Below, one piece after another: positions 2,282 to 14,405 of a stretch of 63,124 bases of DNA. The position numbers and the translations under genes were made by a program. The notes beneath the pieces were generated by a model, which had not been told where the DNA came from, did not search any database, and was given only the letters and a program-made list of their open reading frames with translations. This stretch comes from Streptosporangiaceae bacterium (GTDB lineage: Bacteria; Actinomycetota; Actinomycetes; Streptosporangiales; Streptosporangiaceae), in contig JASHPF010000216.1 in assembly GCA_030038295.1 (NCBI GenBank), positions 1 to 63,124 of the forward strand, written 5' to 3'. The first letter of the stretch is position 1. The number at the start of each line of letters is the position of its first letter.

Positions 2282-2680
2282 CTAGGCCGGCCTGCCCCTG
2301 TCCACCTCGGTGACCCGCACCTGGTCGAGCCGGAGAGCGCGGGTCAGTTCGGCCAGCACTCGCGGCCCGTCGATAGCGCCGCAGCTGAACAGGTCGATGG
2401 CGATCAGCCGCTCCTCCGGCCAGGTGTGGATGGACAGGTGTGACTCGGCCAGGATGAGGACCAGCGTGATCGCGCCGTTGGGGAACACCACGTGACTGTT
2501 AGCGAGCACGTGGCCCGCGCCTGCCCGGACGGCGTCGCCAGCGAGGCCCGCGAGCACGGCCACGTCGGTCACCGGCGACTCGGGCGTGCAGACTGCGTCG
2601 GCGGCGAATAGCCGCTTGGCCGAGACAGCCTCGTGACGCCGCAGATCCGCGTAGCTGCTGGCCGCTTCCATGCCCGGCAT
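2282..2680 (-). CDS. speD: S-adenosylmethionine decarboxylase proenzyme
   Basis: SpeD makes decarboxylated AdoMet, the aminopropyl donor for polyamine synthesis. The 132-aa protein (ATG 2680) is the short class-1B form. It carries the self-cleavage motif [11 protein letters not shown]: cleavage is expected between Glu79 and Ser80, leaving the pyruvoyl group on the new N-terminus. His85 and the catalytic-type Cys in FSCGAID (Cys100) are present. The Shine-Dalgarno is weak and a second ATG lies 9 nt inside. It is transcribed divergently from the bpsA-like gene across a 120-bp region, the strongest clue that the two act together. Longer upstream in-frame sequence overlaps bpsA and was rejected. 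Confidence 0.9.
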
Positions 2681-2800
2681 GATGTGGGAGAATACCGTAC
2701 CGGCCGCCGGGGTCCTCGGGTCGTCCCCTGGTCCCCGGGCTAGCGGCGCAGGGTCGCCCAACGCGGCGGCCGGACGATACCGGGACAAGAAACGCAGCCG

Positions 2801-4045
2801 ATGGACGTGGACGAAGTGGTGACGGAGGTCGCCACGGCGGTCGGCCTGGCAGAGGGCGAATCCGGCATCCGCGACATCTTGTCCGCCGTGCTGGCGGCCG
2901 AGCCGGCCCCGGTGCGCGAGATCGCCCGGCTGGCCGAGCTGCCCGTGCCGATCGTGGCAGCCGCGTGCAACGAGCTCCGCAGGCACGGCATCGTCGATAG
3001 CAAGCGGCCGGTCCATCTCACGGCGAGCGGCCGGGCCGCGATTGCCGACGTCAGCCTCGCCGGCGGCGTGCGCGTCACATGTCCCGAGTGCGGCGGCCGC
3101 GGCGAGATCGTGCCGCCGGAGCTGGCCGGCCTAGCCGCCATGCTGCAGGCGGTCTCGGCGGGGACCCCCGGTGCCAAGGCCGAGCTTGACCAGACGCACT
3201 GCACCGTGGACACCAAGGTGGGCCGCGTACTGCGGCTGCAGCGGGCGCGGGCGCTGGCCGGGCAGCGGATCGTGCTGCTGGGCGACGACGATCTCGTGTC
3301 CGTCGCGGTGGCGCACTACGCGGCCCTGACCGGCAGCCCAGCGGCGGTCCGTCGGCTGGCCGTCGTCGACGCCGACCCGGACATCCTGGCCTGGATCGAC
3401 CAGCAGGTCGCCGGCACCGGTACGACCGTCGAGACGGTGCACCACGACCTGCGCCGGCCGCTGCCAGCATCGCTCGCCGGCGGGTTTGACGTGGTGCTGA
3501 CCGATCCGCCGTACACGGTCCCCGGCGCCCGGCTGTTCCTGAGCCGCGCGGTGTCCGCGCTGGTGCCGGAGCCGGGTCGGCACGTCTTCTTTTCCTTCGG
3601 CGCGCGGCGGCCGGACGAGACGCTGCTCGTGCAGCAGGCCATGGCCGAGATGGGGCTGCTGGTCCGGTCCCTCACGCCCGGCTTCAACGAATACCTGGGC
3701 GCGGGCGTGCTGGCCGGCACCAGCAACCTGTACCACCTGCGAACCGTCGCGGGCGCCAGGCCGCTGATCGAGGGCGACTACGAGGGGCCGTTGTACACGG
3801 CCGACAACCGGGCGGCCGCCGCCCGGCCCTACCGGTGCGCCCGCTGTCGCGCGGTGTCCGAGGTCGGCCCTGGCGCCCGCTGGCCGCAGATCGCGGCCCT
3901 GCAGGCGGCCGGCTGCCCGGCGTGCGGCGGCACCGTGTTCCGGCCCATGCCGCTCCAGTCGCGCGGGGGTCGGGGCGTCGCCGGAGGCGCGCAGCAGTCG
4001 CGCCGCGTTCGGGCCGACGGGGCGGCGCGGGAAGGCAGCCGATGA
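2801..4045 (+). CDS. bpsA: BpsA-like branched-chain polyamine synthase (bis-aminopropyl spermidine synthase family)
   Basis: BpsA enzymes add aminopropyl groups from decarboxylated AdoMet onto spermidine to give N4-branched polyamines. The 414-aa protein shows a winged-helix N-terminus (about 35-85), a zinc-knuckle CPEC at 94-97, then a Rossmann aminopropyltransferase domain with the family motifs GDDDLVS (161-167) and DPPYT (235-239). A second cysteine pair set, CARC (346-349) and CPAC (372-375), forms a probable C-terminal zinc ribbon, followed by a basic tail. The stop overlaps the next start (ATGA). Family assignment is strong. Whether it makes branched polyamines here, or modifies another amine, is inference; no spermidine synthase is in the window. 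Confidence 0.8.
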
Positions 4046-4530
4046 CCGGTTACCTCGTCCGGCCCGCTACGGCCGCCGATGTCGAGGCGATCGTCGGCTA
4101 CGAGATCGACATCGCCGTCGTCTCGTTCGCCGACGAGGCCATCACCGATCCGGCGCTGCACCGCAAGCGAGTCAGCGGCGCGCTCGGCAAGCCGGGGGAG
4201 ATCACGCTGGTGGCCGTTGCCGAGTCGGCGCCGGATGTGCCGGTCGGCTGGGCGTGGGTGTCGGCCCGGACGAATTCGCTGACGGGCGACCGGTACGGGA
4301 ACTTCCGGTCGCTCGCCACGTCAGCCGGTCCCGATCGCAGTCGTGTCGGCGAACTGCTGATGGCGGCCGTGCTGACGGCGGCCGCTCAGGCCGGGCTGAC
4401 CCAGCTGACCGGGAAGGTGCACGCCGCGAATCTGGGCATGCGGACGCTGTACCGAGAGTTCGGCTTCACCGCCACACACCTCACGATGGAGCGCAGAATC
4501 ACGCTCGCCTCGGGCGGAACAGGTGCCTAG
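4042..4530 (+). CDS. GNAT-family N-acetyltransferase
   Basis: The 162-aa protein starts at ATG 4042, inside the stop of the bpsA-like gene. The GNAT fold is visible: an N-terminal YLVRPATAADVEAIVGYE strand/helix, the acyl-CoA loop region around GPDRSRVGELLMAAVL, and the C-terminal RTLYREFGFTATHLTMERR end that closes most GNAT domains. Its place between an aminopropyltransferase and an acyl-carrier module suggests that it acylates an amine, possibly the polyamine made by this operon. The substrate cannot be read from sequence. The last 8 bp overlap the next gene. Confidence 0.75.
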   Translation: MTGYLVRPATAADVEAIVGYEIDIAVVSFADEAITDPALHRKRVSGALGKPGEITLVAVAESAPDVPVGWAWVSARTNSLTGDRYGNFRSLATSAGPDRSRVGELLMAAVLTAAAQAGLTQLTGKVHAANLGMRTLYREFGFTATHLTMERRITLASGGTGA

Positions 4531-5617
4531 CGCGCCGGCCGACGCTGGCGCGGCCGGCGCCGTCGTCAAGTGCGTCGTCTGGGACATCGACAACACCCTG
4601 CTCGACGGCGTCTACCTGGAGTCGAAGGAGCAGCCGCCGCCCGCGGACCCAGTGCTGCTCGGCGTGCTGCGGATACTGGCCAGCCGCGGCATCCTGCAGG
4701 CAGTGGCGAGCCGCAACCCGCCGGCCGCAGCCGACTACGTGCAGCGGCTCGCCGGCCTGGACTTCGCCGCCGCAGAGTGCGGCTGGGACAACAAGCCAGC
4801 CGCCATCGGCCGTATCGCCGCCGACCTCGGCATCGTGCCCGATGCGATGGCGTTCGTCGACGACGACATGGTGGACCGCGCCGAGGTCGCGGCGGCGCTG
4901 CCCGGCGTGCTCGTGCTGACGCCGGAGGACGCCGCCGAGGCGGCAAGCTGGCCGCAGTTCAGCCCGCCGGCGGTGACCGCCGAGGCGCGCCGGCGTGGTC
5001 AGCTGTATGCCGACCGGCGACGTCGTCAGGCGGCCGCACGAGAGTTTGGCGGCTCCCGGGCGGAGTTCCTGCGGCACGTGGGTACGCGCGTGACCATCGC
5101 TCCGGCGACAGCGGCCGATCTGCCCAGACTGCACGAGCTGTCGGTGCGGACCCACCAGCTCAACTCGGCCGGACAGCCGGTGCCGGCCGCCGAGCTGGCC
5201 CGGCTGCTGTCCTCGCCCGGCGCGCAGGTCACCACGGTGGCGCTTGCCGACGACTTCGGCGACGACGGCCTGGTGGGCACGGCGATCTTGCTGGGTGACG
5301 CCGGGGGCCGCCCGCCGGAGCCTGGCGTCGCTACCGTGCCGCTGGTGATGATGTCGTGCCGCGCGCTCGGCCGCGGGGCGCTCGATGCGCTACTGGCCTC
5401 GCTGTGCCGGTCGGCCGCCGCGGCGGGCGCCACCGAGCTGGCGGTACCGTGCCGGGTGACCGACCGCAACGTGCCGTTTCGGCTGGCGCTGGCGGCGGCG
5501 GGTTTCCGGGCGGAGCCAGGCACGGTCACGGCCGACGGGCGAACGCTGTTCCGCCGGCAGCTGACGGGTGACCTGCCGAGCCTGCCCGACTTCGTCGTGA
5601 CACCGGGTCGGTCGTGA
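4523..5617 (+). CDS. FkbH-like HAD-IIIC phosphatase/acyltransferase with C-terminal GNAT domain
   Basis: FkbH-type enzymes take a glyceryl unit from 1,3-bisphosphoglycerate, dephosphorylate it and load it on an acyl carrier protein. This 364-aa protein (GTG 4523) has HAD motif I DIDNTLLDG (21-29), a motif-II-like ASRN (62-65), a conserved Lys91, and motif III FVDDDMVDR (111-119). The C-terminal half has the FkbH signature EFLRHVG and RTHQLN (209-214) leading into a GNAT-like fold. Motif I lacks the GG..GEDG continuation of classical FkbH and the usual CSKN is ASRN, so its donor may differ. It overlaps the genes on both sides, including the ACP, which fits a carrier-loading role. Confidence 0.8.
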   Translation: MPSAPADAGAAGAVVKCVVWDIDNTLLDGVYLESKEQPPPADPVLLGVLRILASRGILQAVASRNPPAAADYVQRLAGLDFAAAECGWDNKPAAIGRIAADLGIVPDAMAFVDDDMVDRAEVAAALPGVLVLTPEDAAEAASWPQFSPPAVTAEARRRGQLYADRRRRQAAAREFGGSRAEFLRHVGTRVTIAPATAADLPRLHELSVRTHQLNSAGQPVPAAELARLLSSPGAQVTTVALADDFGDDGLVGTAILLGDAGGRPPEPGVATVPLVMMSCRALGRGALDALLASLCRSAAAAGATELAVPCRVTDRNVPFRLALAAAGFRAEPGTVTADGRTLFRRQLTGDLPSLPDFVVTPGRS

Positions 5618-5871
5618 CGGCCGCCGCCGACCGGGTGGCCGACGAACTCCGCGTGCTGCTGGCCGAGGTCACCGGGCGGGACGAGCTGCGGGACATCCCC
5701 GCCACGACCGCGCTGCTGGGCGGCGGCGCGGGGCTGGACTCGCTGGCCGGCACGCTGCTGCTACGACAGCTGGAGCGCCGCTACGGCGTCGACGTTGCCG
5801 CCGAGGACCTCAACCTGGACGCCCTGGAGACCCTCGGCACGCTGGCGGCGTTCATCGCCGCTCGGCTCTGA
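5614..5871 (+). CDS. Acyl carrier protein
   Basis: This is an 85-aa acidic helical protein with the phosphopantetheine site GLDSLAG; Ser43 would carry the 4'-phosphopantetheine arm. It begins at GTG 5614, overlapping the FkbH-like stop by GTGA, so the two proteins are translationally coupled. No ketosynthase or NRPS module is nearby, so it is a free-standing carrier, probably for the unit activated by the FkbH-like enzyme. Its 3' end overlaps the convergent antiporter gene by 20 bp. Confidence 0.85.
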   Translation: MTAAADRVADELRVLLAEVTGRDELRDIPATTALLGGGAGLDSLAGTLLLRQLERRYGVDVAAEDLNLDALETLGTLAAFIAARL

Positions 5872-7710: not shown

Positions 7711-9477
7711 GTGCGCAACCCCGGCATCATTGGTGCCGTGGCAGTTACCCCAACGTTCCCGAGCCGCGAGACCCTCGACCGGCTGAGGTTCAAGCCGCTG
7801 GACGTGATCGTCGGCGCGGGCGTGCTGCTGCTGATCTACGTCGTCGTTCGCGTCGGCGCGGGCGCGCGGGCACCGGTCCATCCGTCGGCGACCATCAGCC
7901 TGTCGCCGTCGAACCTGCCCTACTACGCCGCCCGCAGCCTGCTGCGGATGTTTATCGCGCTGGTCCTCTCGTACGCGTTCAGCCTCGGCTACGCCTATGT
8001 CGCGGCCCGAAGCCGGCGCTGGCGCCGGGTGCTGATTCCGGCGCTGGACATCCTCCAGTCGGTTCCGGTACTCGGCTTCCTGGCCATCACGGTGACGTTT
8101 TTCGTCGCTCTCTCTCCCGGCTCGGAACTCGGGTACGAGTGCGCGGCGATCTTCGCCGTGTTCACGTCTCAGGCCTGGAATATCACGTTTTCCTTCTACC
8201 ACTCCCTGATCAGCCAGCCCGCCGATTTCGACGAGGCCAGCAAGCTGATGGGCCTGTCGCGGTGGAAGCGGTTCTGGACCATCGACGTGCCGGGCGGCGC
8301 GATCGGACTGGTCTGGAACGGCATGATGAGCTTCGGCGGCAGCTGGTTCTTCCTGACCGCCTCCGAGCTGATCACGGTGGGCAATCGCAAGTACACGCTG
8401 CCCGGCGTGGGGTCGTATGTCGGCGTGGCCGAGAGCGAGGGCAAGCTGGCCGACGTCGTCTGGGGCATCATCACGATGATCATCATCATCCTGGTGGTCA
8501 ACTTCTTCTTCTGGCGGCCGCTGGTCGCCTACGTGGAGAAGTTCCGGAACGAGCAGTCCGAGTCGGAGCTCAAGGCCAGGTCGCTGCTGCTGGATACGCT
8601 GCGCCGGTCGAACTGGCCGCGCGCGCTCGGGCGCGGCCGGCAGGCCCTCGCCCTCCCGGTCAACCGGGTGATGGGCCGCGTGACCGGGATCGACGACCAG
8701 AGCCTCGGCGTGCACGAGACCAGGCGCCGGGCCGCGGACGTGGCATTCTTTGCCGTACTGACGATCGCGCTCGGCTTTGGCCTGTACAGCATGCTTACCT
8801 ACATCGCGACCGGCGCGGACGGACTGGCGGTGTTCGGCACCGCGTTCACGGATGGATTTGTCACGTTCCTGCGCGTCGTGACCGTGGTGGCGATCGCCTC
8901 GGTCCTGTGGGTGCCCGTCGGCGTGTGGATCGGCTTCAACCCGCGGGTCGCCCAGTTCATGCAGCCGATCGTTCAGATACTGGCCAGCTTCCCGGCGAAC
9001 TTCATCTTCCCGTTCGCCATCGTGGTGTTCCTGGATATAGGGCTGCCGCTGAACTTTGGCGCGATCGTCCTGATGGCGCTGGGTACGCAGTGGTACGTGC
9101 TGTTCAATGTCATCGCCGGCGCGAGCGCGGTGCCCTCTGATCTGAAGGAAGCCATGGACAACCTCGGTGTCAGAGGCTGGGACCGATGGCGCCGGTTCGT
9201 CCTGCCCAGCATTTTCCCGGCGTACGTGACCGGCGCTATCACCGCCGCCGGGGGAGCCTGGAACGCCACCATCGTCGCGGAGATCGTCTCCTACAACCAC
9301 AAGCAGCTCGTCGCGAAGGGCCTCGGCTCGTTCATCGCGCTGAACAGCGGCTCGACCCACCTGCTGCCCGAGCTGTTCGCCGGTCTGCTGGTCATGTCCC
9401 TGTACGTCACCGGGCTGAACGTGCTCGTGTGGCGCCGGCTGTACAAGCTGGCCGAGACGAGGTTCGCGCCGGCATGA
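7711..9477 (+). CDS. ABC importer permease, two fused NitT/TauT-type permease domains
   Basis: The 588-aa protein contains two homologous BPD-type permease halves in one chain. Each has its EAA loop that contacts the ATPase: DFDEASKLMGLSRW (about 172-185) and DLKEAMDNLGVRGW (about 477-490). Such fused permeases belong to the nitrate/sulfonate/bicarbonate group. Start choice is uncertain: GTG 7711 or GTG 7738. A TAGAGT box at 7656-7661 may be the -10. The gene overlaps the ATPase gene by ATGA. No substrate-binding protein gene is adjacent, so the substrate is unknown. Confidence 0.85.
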   Translation: MRNPGIIGAVAVTPTFPSRETLDRLRFKPLDVIVGAGVLLLIYVVVRVGAGARAPVHPSATISLSPSNLPYYAARSLLRMFIALVLSYAFSLGYAYVAARSRRWRRVLIPALDILQSVPVLGFLAITVTFFVALSPGSELGYECAAIFAVFTSQAWNITFSFYHSLISQPADFDEASKLMGLSRWKRFWTIDVPGGAIGLVWNGMMSFGGSWFFLTASELITVGNRKYTLPGVGSYVGVAESEGKLADVVWGIITMIIIILVVNFFFWRPLVAYVEKFRNEQSESELKARSLLLDTLRRSNWPRALGRGRQALALPVNRVMGRVTGIDDQSLGVHETRRRAADVAFFAVLTIALGFGLYSMLTYIATGADGLAVFGTAFTDGFVTFLRVVTVVAIASVLWVPVGVWIGFNPRVAQFMQPIVQILASFPANFIFPFAIVVFLDIGLPLNFGAIVLMALGTQWYVLFNVIAGASAVPSDLKEAMDNLGVRGWDRWRRFVLPSIFPAYVTGAITAAGGAWNATIVAEIVSYNHKQLVAKGLGSFIALNSGSTHLLPELFAGLLVMSLYVTGLNVLVWRRLYKLAETRFAPA

Positions 9478-12400
9478 GCAGCCCCGTGATGTCAGCGGCG
9501 CAGTCGGCCGGGTCCGTCTCCGGGCCGCCGCTGATCAGCGTGCGGAACCTGAGCAAGTCGTTCTCCGGGCCTGGCGGCCGCCCCCTGCCCGTGCTCGACG
9601 ACATCAACATCGACGTGGCCGAGGGGGAGTTCGTCGCCCTCCTCGGCCGGAGCGGCAGCGGCAAGTCGACGCTGCTGCGGTGCATCGCCGGCCTCATGAC
9701 CCCGACCGAGGGTGAGGTGCGGTTCCGCGGCAAGCCGCTGACCGGGACCAACCGCGAGACCGCGATGGTCTTCCAGACGTTCGCGCTCATGCCCTGGCTG
9801 ACCGTGCAGCAGAACGTCGAGCTCGGCCTGGAGGCGCGCGGCGTGCCGTCGGAGCAGCGGACCGAGCGGGCGCTCCGCGCGATCGACATCGTCGGCCTGG
9901 ACGGCTACGAGACCGCCTATCCCAAGGAGCTGTCCGGCGGTATGCGGCAGCGCGTCGGCTTCGCCAGGGCGCTGGTGGTCGAGCCGGCCGCGCTGCTGAT
10001 GGACGAGCCGTTCAGCGCGCTGGACGTGCTCACCTCGGAGAACCTGCGCGGCGAGCTGCTGGAGCTGTGGGAGGGGCACAAGTTCCCCACCAAGACCATC
10101 GTGATGGTCACGCACAACATCGAGGAAGCGGTCCTGCTGGCCGACCGGATCCTCGTGCTCGGCACCAACCCCGGCCGGATCCGCTTCGACCTGGTCAACC
10201 CGCTGCCACGGCCGCGCCGCCGGCGCACCCCGGATTTCGATGAGCTGGTCGACCAGATCTACCGGATGATGACGCAGCGCACTCCGACCGAGGAGCAGCC
10301 AGCCGCCACCGGCGGGGCGGCGCCGTCCGGCACCATCGGCGACACGCCGCTCCCGCAGGCCACCGTCGACGGGCTGTCGGGCCTGGTCGAGATCCTGCTG
10401 GCCCGGCACGGTGGCGCTGCCGACCTGGCCGACCTGGCCGACAACCTGGGTCTGGAGGTCGACGACCTGCTGCCGCTCGTCGACGCGCTCGTCTTGCTCG
10501 GCTTCGCCGGCCTGCATGAGGACCGGCTGGAGCTGACCGGTAACGGGCAGGTGTTCGCGGGCGCGAGCATTCAGGACTCCAAGGAGATCTTCGCCCGGGC
10601 GTCGCTCGACCACGCGCCGCTGGTCCGCACGATCTACCGCAGCCTGCGCGGCAGCCGGGACGACACGCTCCCGGCCGGATTCTTCACCGACATCCTGCGC
10701 ACCAGCTACGGCGAGGAGGAGGCGGCGCGGCAACTCGACGTCGCGGTGAACTGGGGCCGGTACGCGGAGCTGTACGACTACGACGCGACCCGCGGCGAGA
10801 TCATCCGGGAAGAGCAGGGCATCGGGGCCACCATCGCCGAGGCCCCGCGGCCCGCCGCCAGGGGATCGCTCACGGTCTACCTCGGCCCGGCGCCGGGCGC
10901 GGGCACTACCTACACGATGCTCAAGGAGGGTCAGGCGCTGCGTGCCCAGGGCGAGGACGTCGTCATCGGCTTCGCCGAGACGCACGGCAGGCCGCACACG
11001 GTCGAGGCGCTCGGCGGCCTGGAGACGGTACCGCCGGGAGCCACCGGATCCGTCCCCGAACCCAGCGCCGATCTGGATGTCGCCGCGCTGCTGGAGCGCA
11101 AGCCCGCCGTCGCGCTCGTCGACGACCTCGGTGGCCACACCGCTGCCATCGAGACGCTGCGCACTGCCGGCATTCACGTGATCAGCACGGCCGAGGTGGC
11201 GGACGTGGCCCGCGCCGCTGACGAGGTGGCGGCGATCACCGGCGCCCCGGCGCCGGCCACCGTCTCTGACGAGACGCTGGCGAGCGTCGACGCGCTGCAG
11301 TTCGTCGACTCATCGCCGGAGGCCCTGCGCAAGCGCCTCGGGCACGGCAACATCTATCCGCCGGACCAGATCGACGCGGCGCTGCGCACCGAGTTTCAGC
11401 CCGCCAGGCTCGCGGCCCTGCGGGAAATCGGGCTCCGGCTTGTGGCGCAGTGGTCGGCTGCGCAGGGCGCGACCGGGCAGGCCGCGCGGGTCTCCGACGC
11501 CGCGCGCAGTCGCGCCCGTGACGTGCTGGTCGCGGTGAAGCGGCCGGAGCACGTCGAGGCGCTGGTCCGGCGCGGGATCCGGCTGGCCAGGCAGCGCGGC
11601 GCGCGGTGCCGCGTGCTGCTGCTGCGCGAGCAGGGCGCCGCTGCCGACGAGCTCACCGAGCGCGCCGAGGCAGTCGCCACGGCTGGCGCGGCCACCGTGC
11701 TGATCCGGGAGACCCGCGATCCAGGCGCCGCCATCGTCGCCGCGGTGCAAGAGCTGAATGTCCGGCACCTGGTGCTGGCCGCGCTCCCGCCGGGCTTGCT
11801 GGATCGGTGGCGGGGCACGCTGCCCGAGCGGCTGGCCGGCCAGCTGACCGGTCTGCACCTGTACATCGAGACCGCGCCTGGTCCAGAACGGCCGGGGGAG
11901 CCGGGCAGCGCTCCGGTGACGGCCGACGGCGCCGCGGCGCCGCGTCCGCGCGGCACGATCAGGGTCTACCTCGGCTACGCGCCGGGCTGCGGAACCACGA
12001 CCGCGATGCTCGAGGAGGCGGGCCGGCGCCGCTCGCGTGGCGGCGACGTGGTCGTCGGCGCCGTCGACGCGCACGATCGCGAAGGGGTACTGGCCGAGCT
12101 CGAGGGCCTTGAGCTGGTCGGCGACGGCCGCACGCTGGATACCGCCGCGGTACTCGCCAGGCGGCCTGAGGTCGTCTGCATCGATGACCTGACCGGCGGC
12201 ACCACGACCGCGGAGAGTCGGTTCGCCGCCGCCCGCCGGCTCGCCGAGGCGGGCATCACGGTCGTGGGCACGGTCCAGCTCGGCAGGCTGGGCGTCGCGC
12301 CGGCCGGCGGGCCCGTGCTGCTCGACGAGGCCGGGCTGCTGGCGCTCGCCGACGAGATCGAGCTGGTCGACGTGCCGCCGTCCATCCTGACGGACCGGGT

Positions 12401-12992
12401 CCGCCGCGGCGAGATCGTGCCGGCCGATCAGGTTGCGCAGGCCCTGGCCACGACGTATGCGCCCGACGTGCTGCGCGCCGCGCGAGAGCGCGCGTTCGCG
12501 CTGGTTGCCGAGCACGGCGAGCGGCGACTGGCCGCCTACGCGGGCGAGCCTGCGACCGGGCTCGAGGAGGCACCCGGCGAGGACCGACAGCCGTCGATCC
12601 TCGCCTGCGCGGCGCCGCGGCCCGGCATGGAGGCGCTGATCCGGCGCGCCGCCGCGCAGGCCGCGGGCGTTGACGGGGTGTTCCGGGTCGCCACCGTCCG
12701 CACCGCGCAGCCGGACGCCGGGGAAGACGGCGTGGTGAGCGAGTACGGCAGGCTCACCGAGCAGCTCGGCGGCGAGTTCGTGGTGCTGACCGCGGCGTCG
12801 TCGGCGGCCTCGCGAGGCGCGCCCTCGACCGCCGGCGCGCTGGCCGAGTTCGCCGCCCAGAACAAGGTGACGCAGCTCGTCCTCGCCAGGGCGAAGCCGA
12901 GCCCGGCGGGCCGCTACCCGGTGCTACGCGAGCTCGTGCGGCAGGCCCGCGACGTCGAGTTGCACGTGCTGCCCGTCGAGGAGGCCGACTAG
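9474..12992 (+). CDS. ABC ATPase fused to AAA-associated domain and two KdpD-sensor/USP modules
   Basis: The 1172-aa chain starts at ATG 9474 inside the permease stop. Residues 20-245 are a complete ABC ATPase: Walker A GRSGSGKST (58-66), Q101, signature LSGGMRQR (153-160), Walker B LLMDEP (174-179), His214. Residues about 298-445 match the AAA-associated C-terminal domain of nitrate/sulfonate-type ATPases. Then come two copies of the cytoplasmic KdpD sensor (about 465-655 and 827-1010), each followed by a USP-like fold (about 680-800 and 1040-1166). In both KdpD copies the P-loop lysine is replaced: GAGTT (475-479) and GCGTT (838-842) instead of GxGKT. The KdpD features ETHGRP, NIYPPDQ and LAALREIGLRLV are visible. 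Normal KdpD kinase parts (transmembrane bundle, DHp, CA) are absent. Likely an ABC importer ATPase gated by a KdpD-type ligand or ionic signal; that role is inference. Confidence 0.9.
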   Translation: MSSPVMSAAQSAGSVSGPPLISVRNLSKSFSGPGGRPLPVLDDINIDVAEGEFVALLGRSGSGKSTLLRCIAGLMTPTEGEVRFRGKPLTGTNRETAMVFQTFALMPWLTVQQNVELGLEARGVPSEQRTERALRAIDIVGLDGYETAYPKELSGGMRQRVGFARALVVEPAALLMDEPFSALDVLTSENLRGELLELWEGHKFPTKTIVMVTHNIEEAVLLADRILVLGTNPGRIRFDLVNPLPRPRRRRTPDFDELVDQIYRMMTQRTPTEEQPAATGGAAPSGTIGDTPLPQATVDGLSGLVEILLARHGGAADLADLADNLGLEVDDLLPLVDALVLLGFAGLHEDRLELTGNGQVFAGASIQDSKEIFARASLDHAPLVRTIYRSLRGSRDDTLPAGFFTDILRTSYGEEEAARQLDVAVNWGRYAELYDYDATRGEIIREEQGIGATIAEAPRPAARGSLTVYLGPAPGAGTTYTMLKEGQALRAQGEDVVIGFAETHGRPHTVEALGGLETVPPGATGSVPEPSADLDVAALLERKPAVALVDDLGGHTAAIETLRTAGIHVISTAEVADVARAADEVAAITGAPAPATVSDETLASVDALQFVDSSPEALRKRLGHGNIYPPDQIDAALRTEFQPARLAALREIGLRLVAQWSAAQGATGQAARVSDAARSRARDVLVAVKRPEHVEALVRRGIRLARQRGARCRVLLLREQGAAADELTERAEAVATAGAATVLIRETRDPGAAIVAAVQELNVRHLVLAALPPGLLDRWRGTLPERLAGQLTGLHLYIETAPGPERPGEPGSAPVTADGAAAPRPRGTIRVYLGYAPGCGTTTAMLEEAGRRRSRGGDVVVGAVDAHDREGVLAELEGLELVGDGRTLDTAAVLARRPEVVCIDDLTGGTTTAESRFAAARRLAEAGITVVGTVQLGRLGVAPAGGPVLLDEAGLLALADEIELVDVPPSILTDRVRRGEIVPADQVAQALATTYAPDVLRAARERAFALVAEHGERRLAAYAGEPATGLEEAPGEDRQPSILACAAPRPGMEALIRRAAAQAAGVDGVFRVATVRTAQPDAGEDGVVSEYGRLTEQLGGEFVVLTAASSAASRGAPSTAGALAEFAAQNKVTQLVLARAKPSPAGRYPVLRELVRQARDVELHVLPVEEAD

Positions 12993-13004
12993 CCCTCAGC
13001 CCAG

Positions 13005-14405
13005 CTAGCCGCCGGACACCGCGGTTACCCCGGTCAGCGTGCCGACCAGGACCAGGCTGCCGGACAGCGTGGGCGAGACGAAGTGCGGCAGCGCGCTGGC
13101 CACCCGCAGCTGGTATCTGACCTGGCCGGTGGCCGGGCTCAGCTCATCCAGCACCCCCGAGTCCGGGCTGGCCACCCAGACCGCGCCGCCGCCGACCACT
13201 GGCGAGCCCCACACGTCGGCCGGCCCGCGCCAGACGACCCTGACCGCGGACCCGGCGGTGTTCACCGCGGCGAGTCCGGTCAGGCAGGGCACGTAGACGA
13301 CGCTGCCGCTCACCGCGGCACCGCCGAAAGCGGCGCACACCGGACCGGCCGCTACCTGGCCGCCGACGCCGCCGAGGTGCGCGGTGTCGAGCAGGTAACC
13401 AGTCGCGCTCTTGCCCACCTGGAGGATCTGCCCGTCCGGCAGCAGCGCGGGGGACATGGAGCCCAGGTCGAGGTCGTCGGCGCTGAGCGTGCGCCAGTCG
13501 GTCGGCGCGAAAATGCCGATCTCGGTCAGCTGAGGTGTCAGGGCGGTGACCGAGTCGCTGCCGTCGTAGGGGCCCTGCGTTGGCGCGCCATTGCCGGTGC
13601 TGACGTAGATCGTGCCGTCCGGCCCTATTACGGGGCCGCCCGCCGCCCAGATACCGCCCTGCTTCGCCGTCGGCACCTGGTAGGAATAGACGGCGCCGTG
13701 GCCACTGGCCGGCATGCCAACCACCGAGCCGGTGTAAGGGCCGCAGTCGCCGTAGTGCCCGCCGAAGACCACGTATACGTACCCGTCCTCGAGTGCGAGG
13801 GCGCCGCGCTGCTGGTCATAGAACGGCTGGTGGTCGGGCGAGGGGACATCCTCGCGTACCTCGACGACGCCGGACGCGGGGTTCAGGCCGACGAGCACGT
13901 GCTCGGTGGTGCCGGACTGGGCGACGAAGTACGCCAGTCCGTTCTGCGGGTCGTACACGCCGGTGCTGGTGATGCCGAGCGGATTCAGGTTGCCGCACGG
14001 CTGCTCGCTCAGCGGCTCAGCGGTGCCGACGCCGGTGCGCCAGCGCACCGCGCCGGTTGCCAGGTCCAGACCGTAGATTTCGTCCTGCTCGGTGGCCGCG
14101 AGGACGGTCGTGCCGACGACCAGCGGCTGCCCGTACACCGCACCGCCGAGTGCTGCCGTCCACGCCACGGCGAGCCGCCCGGCCGCGGGCAGGCCGGCAA
14201 CAGTACCCGTTCGGGCCCCGTTCCCGTGGTATTGATACCAGCCCGCCGACGCCGGTGAACCCGGGCTCGAGGCGGCGCTCGCGCTTGGCGTGGCCGCGCT
14301 GCCGGGCGACGGCAAACCGGGCGGCCGGGCCGTCGGCGTCGTCGAGCAGCCGGCGGTCGCGGTGAGGACAGCGAGCGCGGCCAGCGCTGCCGGTGCCGTC
14401 CGCAT
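13005..14405 (-). CDS. Secreted PQQ/beta-propeller lipoprotein
   Basis: The 466-aa product starts at ATG 14405 with a signal peptide ending in the lipobox TATAGC, so it should be lipid-anchored on the outer face of the membrane. A Pro/Ser/Ala linker follows, then repeated blades with PQQ-like motifs: VVGTTVLAATEQDEIYGLDLATGAVRWR is typical, and further blades contain GYVYVVFGG, GTIYVSTGNG and VVYVPCLTGL. This resembles BamB/PQQ-binding propellers. I see no dehydrogenase catalytic residues, so a scaffold or binding role is more likely. It ends 12 bp after the convergent ABC ATPase gene. Confidence 0.8.
   Translation of the reverse strand: MRTAPAALAALAVLTATAGCSTTPTARPPGLPSPGSAATPSASAASSPGSPASAGWYQYHGNGARTGTVAGLPAAGRLAVAWTAALGGAVYGQPLVVGTTVLAATEQDEIYGLDLATGAVRWRTGVGTAEPLSEQPCGNLNPLGITSTGVYDPQNGLAYFVAQSGTTEHVLVGLNPASGVVEVREDVPSPDHQPFYDQQRGALALEDGYVYVVFGGHYGDCGPYTGSVVGMPASGHGAVYSYQVPTAKQGGIWAAGGPVIGPDGTIYVSTGNGAPTQGPYDGSDSVTALTPQLTEIGIFAPTDWRTLSADDLDLGSMSPALLPDGQILQVGKSATGYLLDTAHLGGVGGQVAAGPVCAAFGGAAVSGSVVYVPCLTGLAAVNTAGSAVRVVWRGPADVWGSPVVGGGAVWVASPDSGVLDELSPATGQVRYQLRVASALPHFVSPTLSGSLVLVGTLTGVTAVSGG

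Follow-up and report, generated by a model that had tools for sequence, protein, structure and literature searches.

Characterised enzymes of the branched-polyamine synthase (BpsA) family use polyamines as substrates; in the enzyme of T. kodakarensis the GDDD motif is essential for decarboxylated S-adenosylmethionine (dcSAM), and the acidic C-terminal tail of BpsA is described as an aminopropyl carrier (PMC12979288). Branched polyamines are treated as thermophile compounds in a 2026 review. An FkbH-like protein together with a stand-alone acyl carrier protein (ACP) is the known glyceryl-ACP module of tetronate pathways (PMC7489565). For the peptides suomilide and corramycin, the glycerate that FkbH loads is proposed to be converted to an amide (PMC13122637, PMC10099666). 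The CoA P-loop of GNAT enzymes has the consensus Gln/Arg-x-x-Gly-x-Gly/Ala (PMC4964394), and atypical P-loops also occur in some CoA-dependent members. In the open literature searched, no system joins BpsA or another aminopropyltransferase to FkbH and an ACP, in agreement with the initial annotation of this DNA, which knew of no such set, and nothing relevant is found there for polyamines combined with FkbH or for O-antigen glyceramide operons. The enzymes described below are individually known, and their combination appears to be new.

Layout of the locus

The window (the whole analysed stretch of 63,124 nucleotides from a Streptosporangiaceae bacterium) contains a five-gene set, here called the cassette, in which speD on the minus strand stands opposite four overlapping plus-strand genes, bpsA, GNAT, fkbH and ACP (2801-5871). 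The five families that had been named at 2282-5871 from the sequence are those found by the profile searches, all five being confirmed by Pfam and NCBIfam profiles (Table 1). The overlaps of 4-8 bp that had been given as the linkage of the genes hold for the four plus-strand genes, in which bpsA and GNAT share 4 bp (ATGA at 4042), GNAT and fkbH 8 bp (GTGCCTAG at 4523), and fkbH and ACP 4 bp (GTGA at 5614), judging from the sequence reading. These four genes all fall within the span that had been given. The overlaps do not extend to speD, which is divergent and therefore lies outside the overlapping operon. The start of speD is placed at ~2680 (MPGMEAASS) by alignment with relatives, while the raw ORF extends to 3016. 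The start of the GNAT gene at ~4042 is likewise placed by relatives, and its raw ORF reaches further upstream.

Table 1. Positions of the cassette genes and of selected motifs in the window
Feature	Position	Strand	Description
speD	2282..2680	-	predicted class 1b S-adenosylmethionine decarboxylase; PF02675 4.6e-21
SpeD pyruvoyl Ser codon	2443-2441	-	
bpsA	2801..4045	+	branched-polyamine-synthase-like aminopropyltransferase; PF01861 (BpsA_C) 1.4e-35
BpsA GDDD motif	3281..3292	+	residues 161-164
BpsA DPPYT	3503..3517	+	residues 235-239
GNAT-fold N-acyltransferase	4042..4530	+	PF00583 8e-6
fkbH	4523..5617	+	HAD-IIIC phosphatase / glyceryl transferase family; TIGR01686 191.6 bits
stand-alone ACP	5614..5871	+	PP-binding, PF00550 1.5e-10
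ACP phosphopantetheine Ser43 (DSL)	5740-5742	+	

Recurrence of the gene set and gene fusion

In the genus of the window, the order and orientation of the cassette are kept wherever the contig extends far enough; two contigs (L031 and L037) stop inside fkbH, and one genome of the genus (G004, 72% complete) gives no match. G027, from another genus of the same family, carries bpsA, GNAT and fkbH on one short contig and a SpeD of the genus type on another. Class- and phylum-wide searches find cassette-type BpsA in the genus g48, which has genomes of 6-10 Mb and is probably Streptomyces, and also in two more distant genomes, G118 from another family and G553 from another class. Nine of the 296 sampled g48 genomes carry it, and two more g48 genomes come from the class-wide search. 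speD and bpsA-GNAT are present at each of the 11 g48 loci, and at ten they are accompanied by fkbH and ACP, with the gene order kept. All five genes are also present in G118, with speD placed on the other side. The identity of the five genes between the window genus and g48 and G118 is ~38-48%.

G118 and G553 are the sole carriers of a cassette-type BpsA gene in their samples (1 of 121 genomes of the family and 1 of 24 of the class, respectively), and the distribution is therefore patchy. Partial sets are seen as well. In G553 and L055, speD and bpsA are found and the other cassette genes are undetected, the G553 locus ending 1.5 kb past bpsA. In G936 (L142), fkbH is decayed and the ACP and the phosphopantetheinyl transferase described below are missing, with speD and bpsA-GNAT intact; this loss suggests that GNAT may use another donor, or that the G936 copy is decaying.

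The manner in which BpsA and GNAT are joined should be noted. They are separate genes in the window genus, and form a single uninterrupted ORF, ~640-710 residues long where measured, in each of the 11 g48 copies as well as in G118; the fusion is confirmed by Pfam in L098, L100 and L142. This gene fusion is strong evidence that both act on one substrate. Furthermore, a gene for an Sfp-type 4'-phosphopantetheinyl transferase (PPTase; PF01648) adjoins speD at ten of the 11 g48 loci and in G118, as expected if the ACP must be activated.

The five-gene set is not a chance neighbourhood, since it recurs syntenically in the window genus, g48 and G118. Scrambling in relatives, which the initial annotation had named as a sign against its reading, is not what the neighbourhood survey gives: the cassette is kept in these three groups. 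The earlier proposal that the genes form one functional unit thus gains from the synteny, and the BpsA-GNAT fusion and the adjacent PPTase lend weight to the view that an ACP-borne acyl group is transferred to a polyamine. Recurrence of the set in distant relatives, with two of its genes fused, indicates that the partnership is real, and a functional partnership of the five genes is well supported.

The occurrence of SpeD follows that of cassette-type BpsA. SpeD is present in all nine g48 genomes with cassette-type BpsA (from the sampled set) and in 5 of the 287 without it (Fisher p = 5e-14, with shared ancestry ignored), and the co-occurrence among 60 relatives gives p = 9e-10, again with shared ancestry ignored. 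Among the genomes checked, cassette-type BpsA never occurs without SpeD in the same genome, and SpeD is present solely as the cassette copy; it is single-copy in 12 of 12 genomes tested.

Features of the encoded proteins

SpeD of the window aligns to the structures 1vr7/1tlu. It scores above the Pfam cut-off for PF02675 and slightly below that of TIGR03330 (74.1 bits against 75.65). Diagnostic residues that tell decarboxylases of ornithine and arginine from those of S-adenosylmethionine within this family are published (PMC10407285). The window and its genus retain the counterparts of Ser63, His68 and Cys83 in the T. maritima enzyme. At the position of Cys83, Tyr is found in g48, in L055 and in the L086 / G553 copy, and Cys in G118.

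In a sequence search, BpsA of the window matches the structure of T. kodakarensis BpsA (5xnc) at 2.7e-28, and T. thermophilus BpsA is also matched. The predicted model is of modest quality (pLDDT 72); BpsA entries, together with the BpsA-like 2qm3, make up its nine top fold matches. The alignment gives an N-terminal Cys pair, the GDDD motif and a C-terminal CxxC...CPxCG segment resembling a zinc ribbon. GDDD is present in all cassette-type copies whose matched ORF covers the motif, whereas the distant paralogues have GDHD. Thus, the cassette enzyme shares with the T. kodakarensis and T. thermophilus enzymes the fold, the Cys pair, the dcSAM motif and a SpeD partner. It differs from them around the acceptor: the sequence DPPYT places Tyr at the position of the acceptor residue Glu259 (DPPET) of T. 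kodakarensis BpsA. Homology to the solved chains stops at residue 304-307, beyond which lies the Cys-rich segment, and comparison with these chains indicates that the acidic flexible C-terminal tail of characterised BpsA is absent. The branched product put forward in the initial annotation is not borne out by these two features. The zinc-ribbon-like C-terminus is an addition relative to the thermophile enzymes, as is the GNAT that adjoins or is fused to BpsA. The hosts differ as well, being actinobacterial MAGs and g48, which are not evident thermophiles, unlike the known BpsA hosts.

The AlphaFold model of GNAT (pLDDT 81) has the GNAT fold, while the sequence gives no match to solved structures at E 0.001. 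The polyamine acetyltransferase DpA is among many tied top fold matches, which is weak evidence because many GNATs tie; the matches are mostly acetyl-CoA enzymes. The cassette protein departs from the CoA P-loop consensus, with variation at the motif Gly (PDRSRVGELL, DNRSDVAELL and others). Such a degenerate P-loop fits an ACP as the acyl donor, a compatibility that falls short of proof. The cassette GNAT would thus resemble the polyamine N-acetyltransferases SpeG, PaiA and DpA in fold and in its expected polyamine substrate, and differ from them in an acyl donor that is probably the ACP, in the degenerate P-loop, and in the aminopropyltransferase fusion in g48 and G118.

FkbH of the window is well above the curated cut-off of TIGR01686 (146.65 bits), and that of g48 also exceeds it. 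In an alignment of 16 sequences, D21, D23, S63, K91, D113, D114 and Cys279 of SCRxxGRG are invariant. The cassette proteins form a divergent group, the window sequence being 37-42% identical to those of g48 and G118. FkbH relatives may load acids other than glycerate. The phosphopantetheine Ser of the ACP is invariant across the aligned copies.

The glycerate-utilisation (tetronate) and methoxymalonyl-ACP operons likewise pair an FkbH-like protein with a stand-alone ACP dedicated to it. The cassette differs from these in having no FabH-like, dehydrogenase or methyltransferase partner among its conserved genes (no FabH-like tetronate-forming enzyme is among the genes conserved beside it), in its SpeD, BpsA and GNAT partners, and in several hosts without a detected polyketide synthase (PKS) dehydratase. 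No PKS dehydratase domain is detected in G000 (87% complete), G001, G003 or G118; G006 and G008 have one weak match each, G005 has three, and G057 is rich in such domains. The conservation across hosts is therefore not accounted for by a PKS role. FkbH itself is found in the cassette alone in the genomes checked, the fkbH gene of G005 being split over two contigs. Service of FkbH and the ACP to a distant PKS, the alternative that the initial annotation had raised, is disfavoured by this cassette-only occurrence and by the four genomes in which a reducing PKS is undetected. With the suomilide and corramycin systems, in which nonribosomal peptides are started by FkbH, the cassette would share the conversion of FkbH-loaded glycerate to an amide, as proposed for those compounds. 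There the amide is made by condensation domains of the nonribosomal peptide synthetase, whereas in the cassette we propose GNAT acting on a polyamine.

Proposed pathway and competing explanations

We put at roughly one half the probability that the cassette encodes a self-contained pathway for an N-acylated aminopropyl polyamine, each reaction of which we infer. SpeD would decarboxylate S-adenosylmethionine to dcSAM, from which the BpsA-like enzyme would move one or more aminopropyl groups to a putative amine acceptor. The substrate of FkbH would be a phosphorylated acid of three carbons, with 1,3-bisphosphoglycerate the most likely; FkbH would dephosphorylate it and place the presumed glyceryl group on the ACP. 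The ACP would be activated by a PPTase, whose gene lies beside the cassette in g48 and G118 and presumably elsewhere in the genome of the window. Finally, GNAT, if it uses acyl-ACP, would pass the acyl group to one of the amines in the BpsA product to give a glyceramide-type polyamine. Several observations count against this pathway: the missing Glu259 and acidic tail of BpsA, Tyr for Cys83 in g48 SpeD, the loss of fkbH, ACP and PPTase in G936, and the speD-bpsA pairs of G553 and L055, beside which further cassette genes are undetected.

We suggest, tentatively, a wider picture in which the aminopropyl polyamine of a non-thermophile is acylated in a carrier-protein-dependent manner, giving a glyceramide-type polyamine through a fused aminopropyltransferase/N-acyltransferase, and in which the distribution of the system among actinobacteria has arisen through transfer or differential loss. 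If true, this would define a new class of modified polyamines, take BpsA-type chemistry beyond thermophiles to soil actinobacteria as well, and provide a compact, testable pathway of five or six genes in organisms (g48) that are probably culturable streptomycetes.

The acceptor of BpsA is where the pathway would most readily take another course. With Tyr for Glu259 and the zinc-ribbon-like segment for the acidic tail, the acceptor may differ, so that the aminopropyl group would go onto a carrier-bound acid or a non-polyamine amine to give an aminopropylated small acid or amide; the weak spermidine-synthase-family match in the genome of the window (32 bits) points the same way. We regard this as unlikely, given that the characterised family members act on polyamines (PMC12979288) and that G553 has speD-bpsA, further cassette genes being undetected, and no match to PF01564, as expected if BpsA is the polyamine partner of SpeD. 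Another course, which we consider quite unlikely, is that two functions are loosely coupled, GNAT acetylating the SpeD/BpsA polyamine from acetyl-CoA in the manner of SpeG while FkbH and the ACP feed glyceryl to another assembly line. The predominance of acetyl-CoA enzymes among the GNAT fold matches and the retention of BpsA-GNAT in G936 despite the loss of fkbH and ACP agree with such a separation, but the synteny of FkbH/ACP with bpsA-GNAT in three families, the restriction of FkbH to the cassette in the genomes checked, the four genomes in which PKS dehydratase domains are undetected, the lack of the P-loop consensus in GNAT, and the PPTase adjoining the cassette in g48 and G118 argue against it.

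The self-contained N-acyl polyamine pathway could also operate with another acid in place of glycerate, such as one of the lactate or glycolate type, and so give a different N-acyl polyamine. Membership of the FkbH family leaves the acid unfixed, and the divergence of the cassette FkbH group would accommodate such a change. This is the least probable of these explanations, as FkbH of both the window and g48 exceeds the TIGR01686 cut-off with the HAD catalytic residues invariant, and the FkbH activity described in the literature consulted is glyceryl loading.

Other BpsA homologues are distinct from the cassette enzyme. In the BpsA tree, cassette-type BpsA is set apart from the GDHD paralogues and from the GDDD/DPPET BpsA that small-genome members of the phylum carry, each at 100/100; the branches of G118 and G553 are long and their position is uncertain. 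We considered whether the widespread BpsA_C proteins of Streptosporangiaceae represent the same system and rejected this, as they belong to the separate GDHD clade, mostly in genomes without detected SpeD, and the other cassette genes are missing at the loci checked. Plasmid carriage was likewise rejected, the sole plasmid match being a distant BpsA paralogue, without annotation, in Nonomuraea gerenzanensis.

BpsA paralogues and motif-bearing BpsA

BpsA_C-family paralogues with GDHD in place of the dcSAM motif GDDD (L011–L028, L062–L087, L092, L114, L116, and other loci; identity about 36%) are frequent in Streptosporangiaceae and in other families. SpeD was not found in most genomes bearing these paralogues, which are probably not dcSAM enzymes. 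BpsA with both GDDD and DPPET, the latter containing the acceptor Glu259 of the T. kodakarensis enzyme, is observed at L088–L095 in genomes of 1.3–1.8 Mb from the same phylum as the window (G495, G594, G633, G652, G662, G672, and G748), and a SpeD gene lies nearby in at least three of them.

SpeD replacement and a decayed cassette

SpeD of the g48 loci (a genus whose cassette has BpsA and GNAT fused), L055, and L086 carries Tyr at the position of the catalytic Cys (T. maritima Cys83), suggesting that activity or substrate may be altered. In genome G936, intact speD and bpsA-GNAT adjoin the decayed fkbH region, after which a ketosynthase-like reading frame comes.

Fusion ORF in the window

The ORF in the table is an unusual fusion, and an ABC permease adjoins it.

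Positions of the fusion ORF and the decayed cassette
Sequence	Positions	Feature
Window	9186-12992	Single ORF: ABC-transporter ATPase, AAA-associated C-terminal domain, two KdpD sensor domains
L142 (G936)	~10877-13200	fkbH decayed; ACP and PPTase absent
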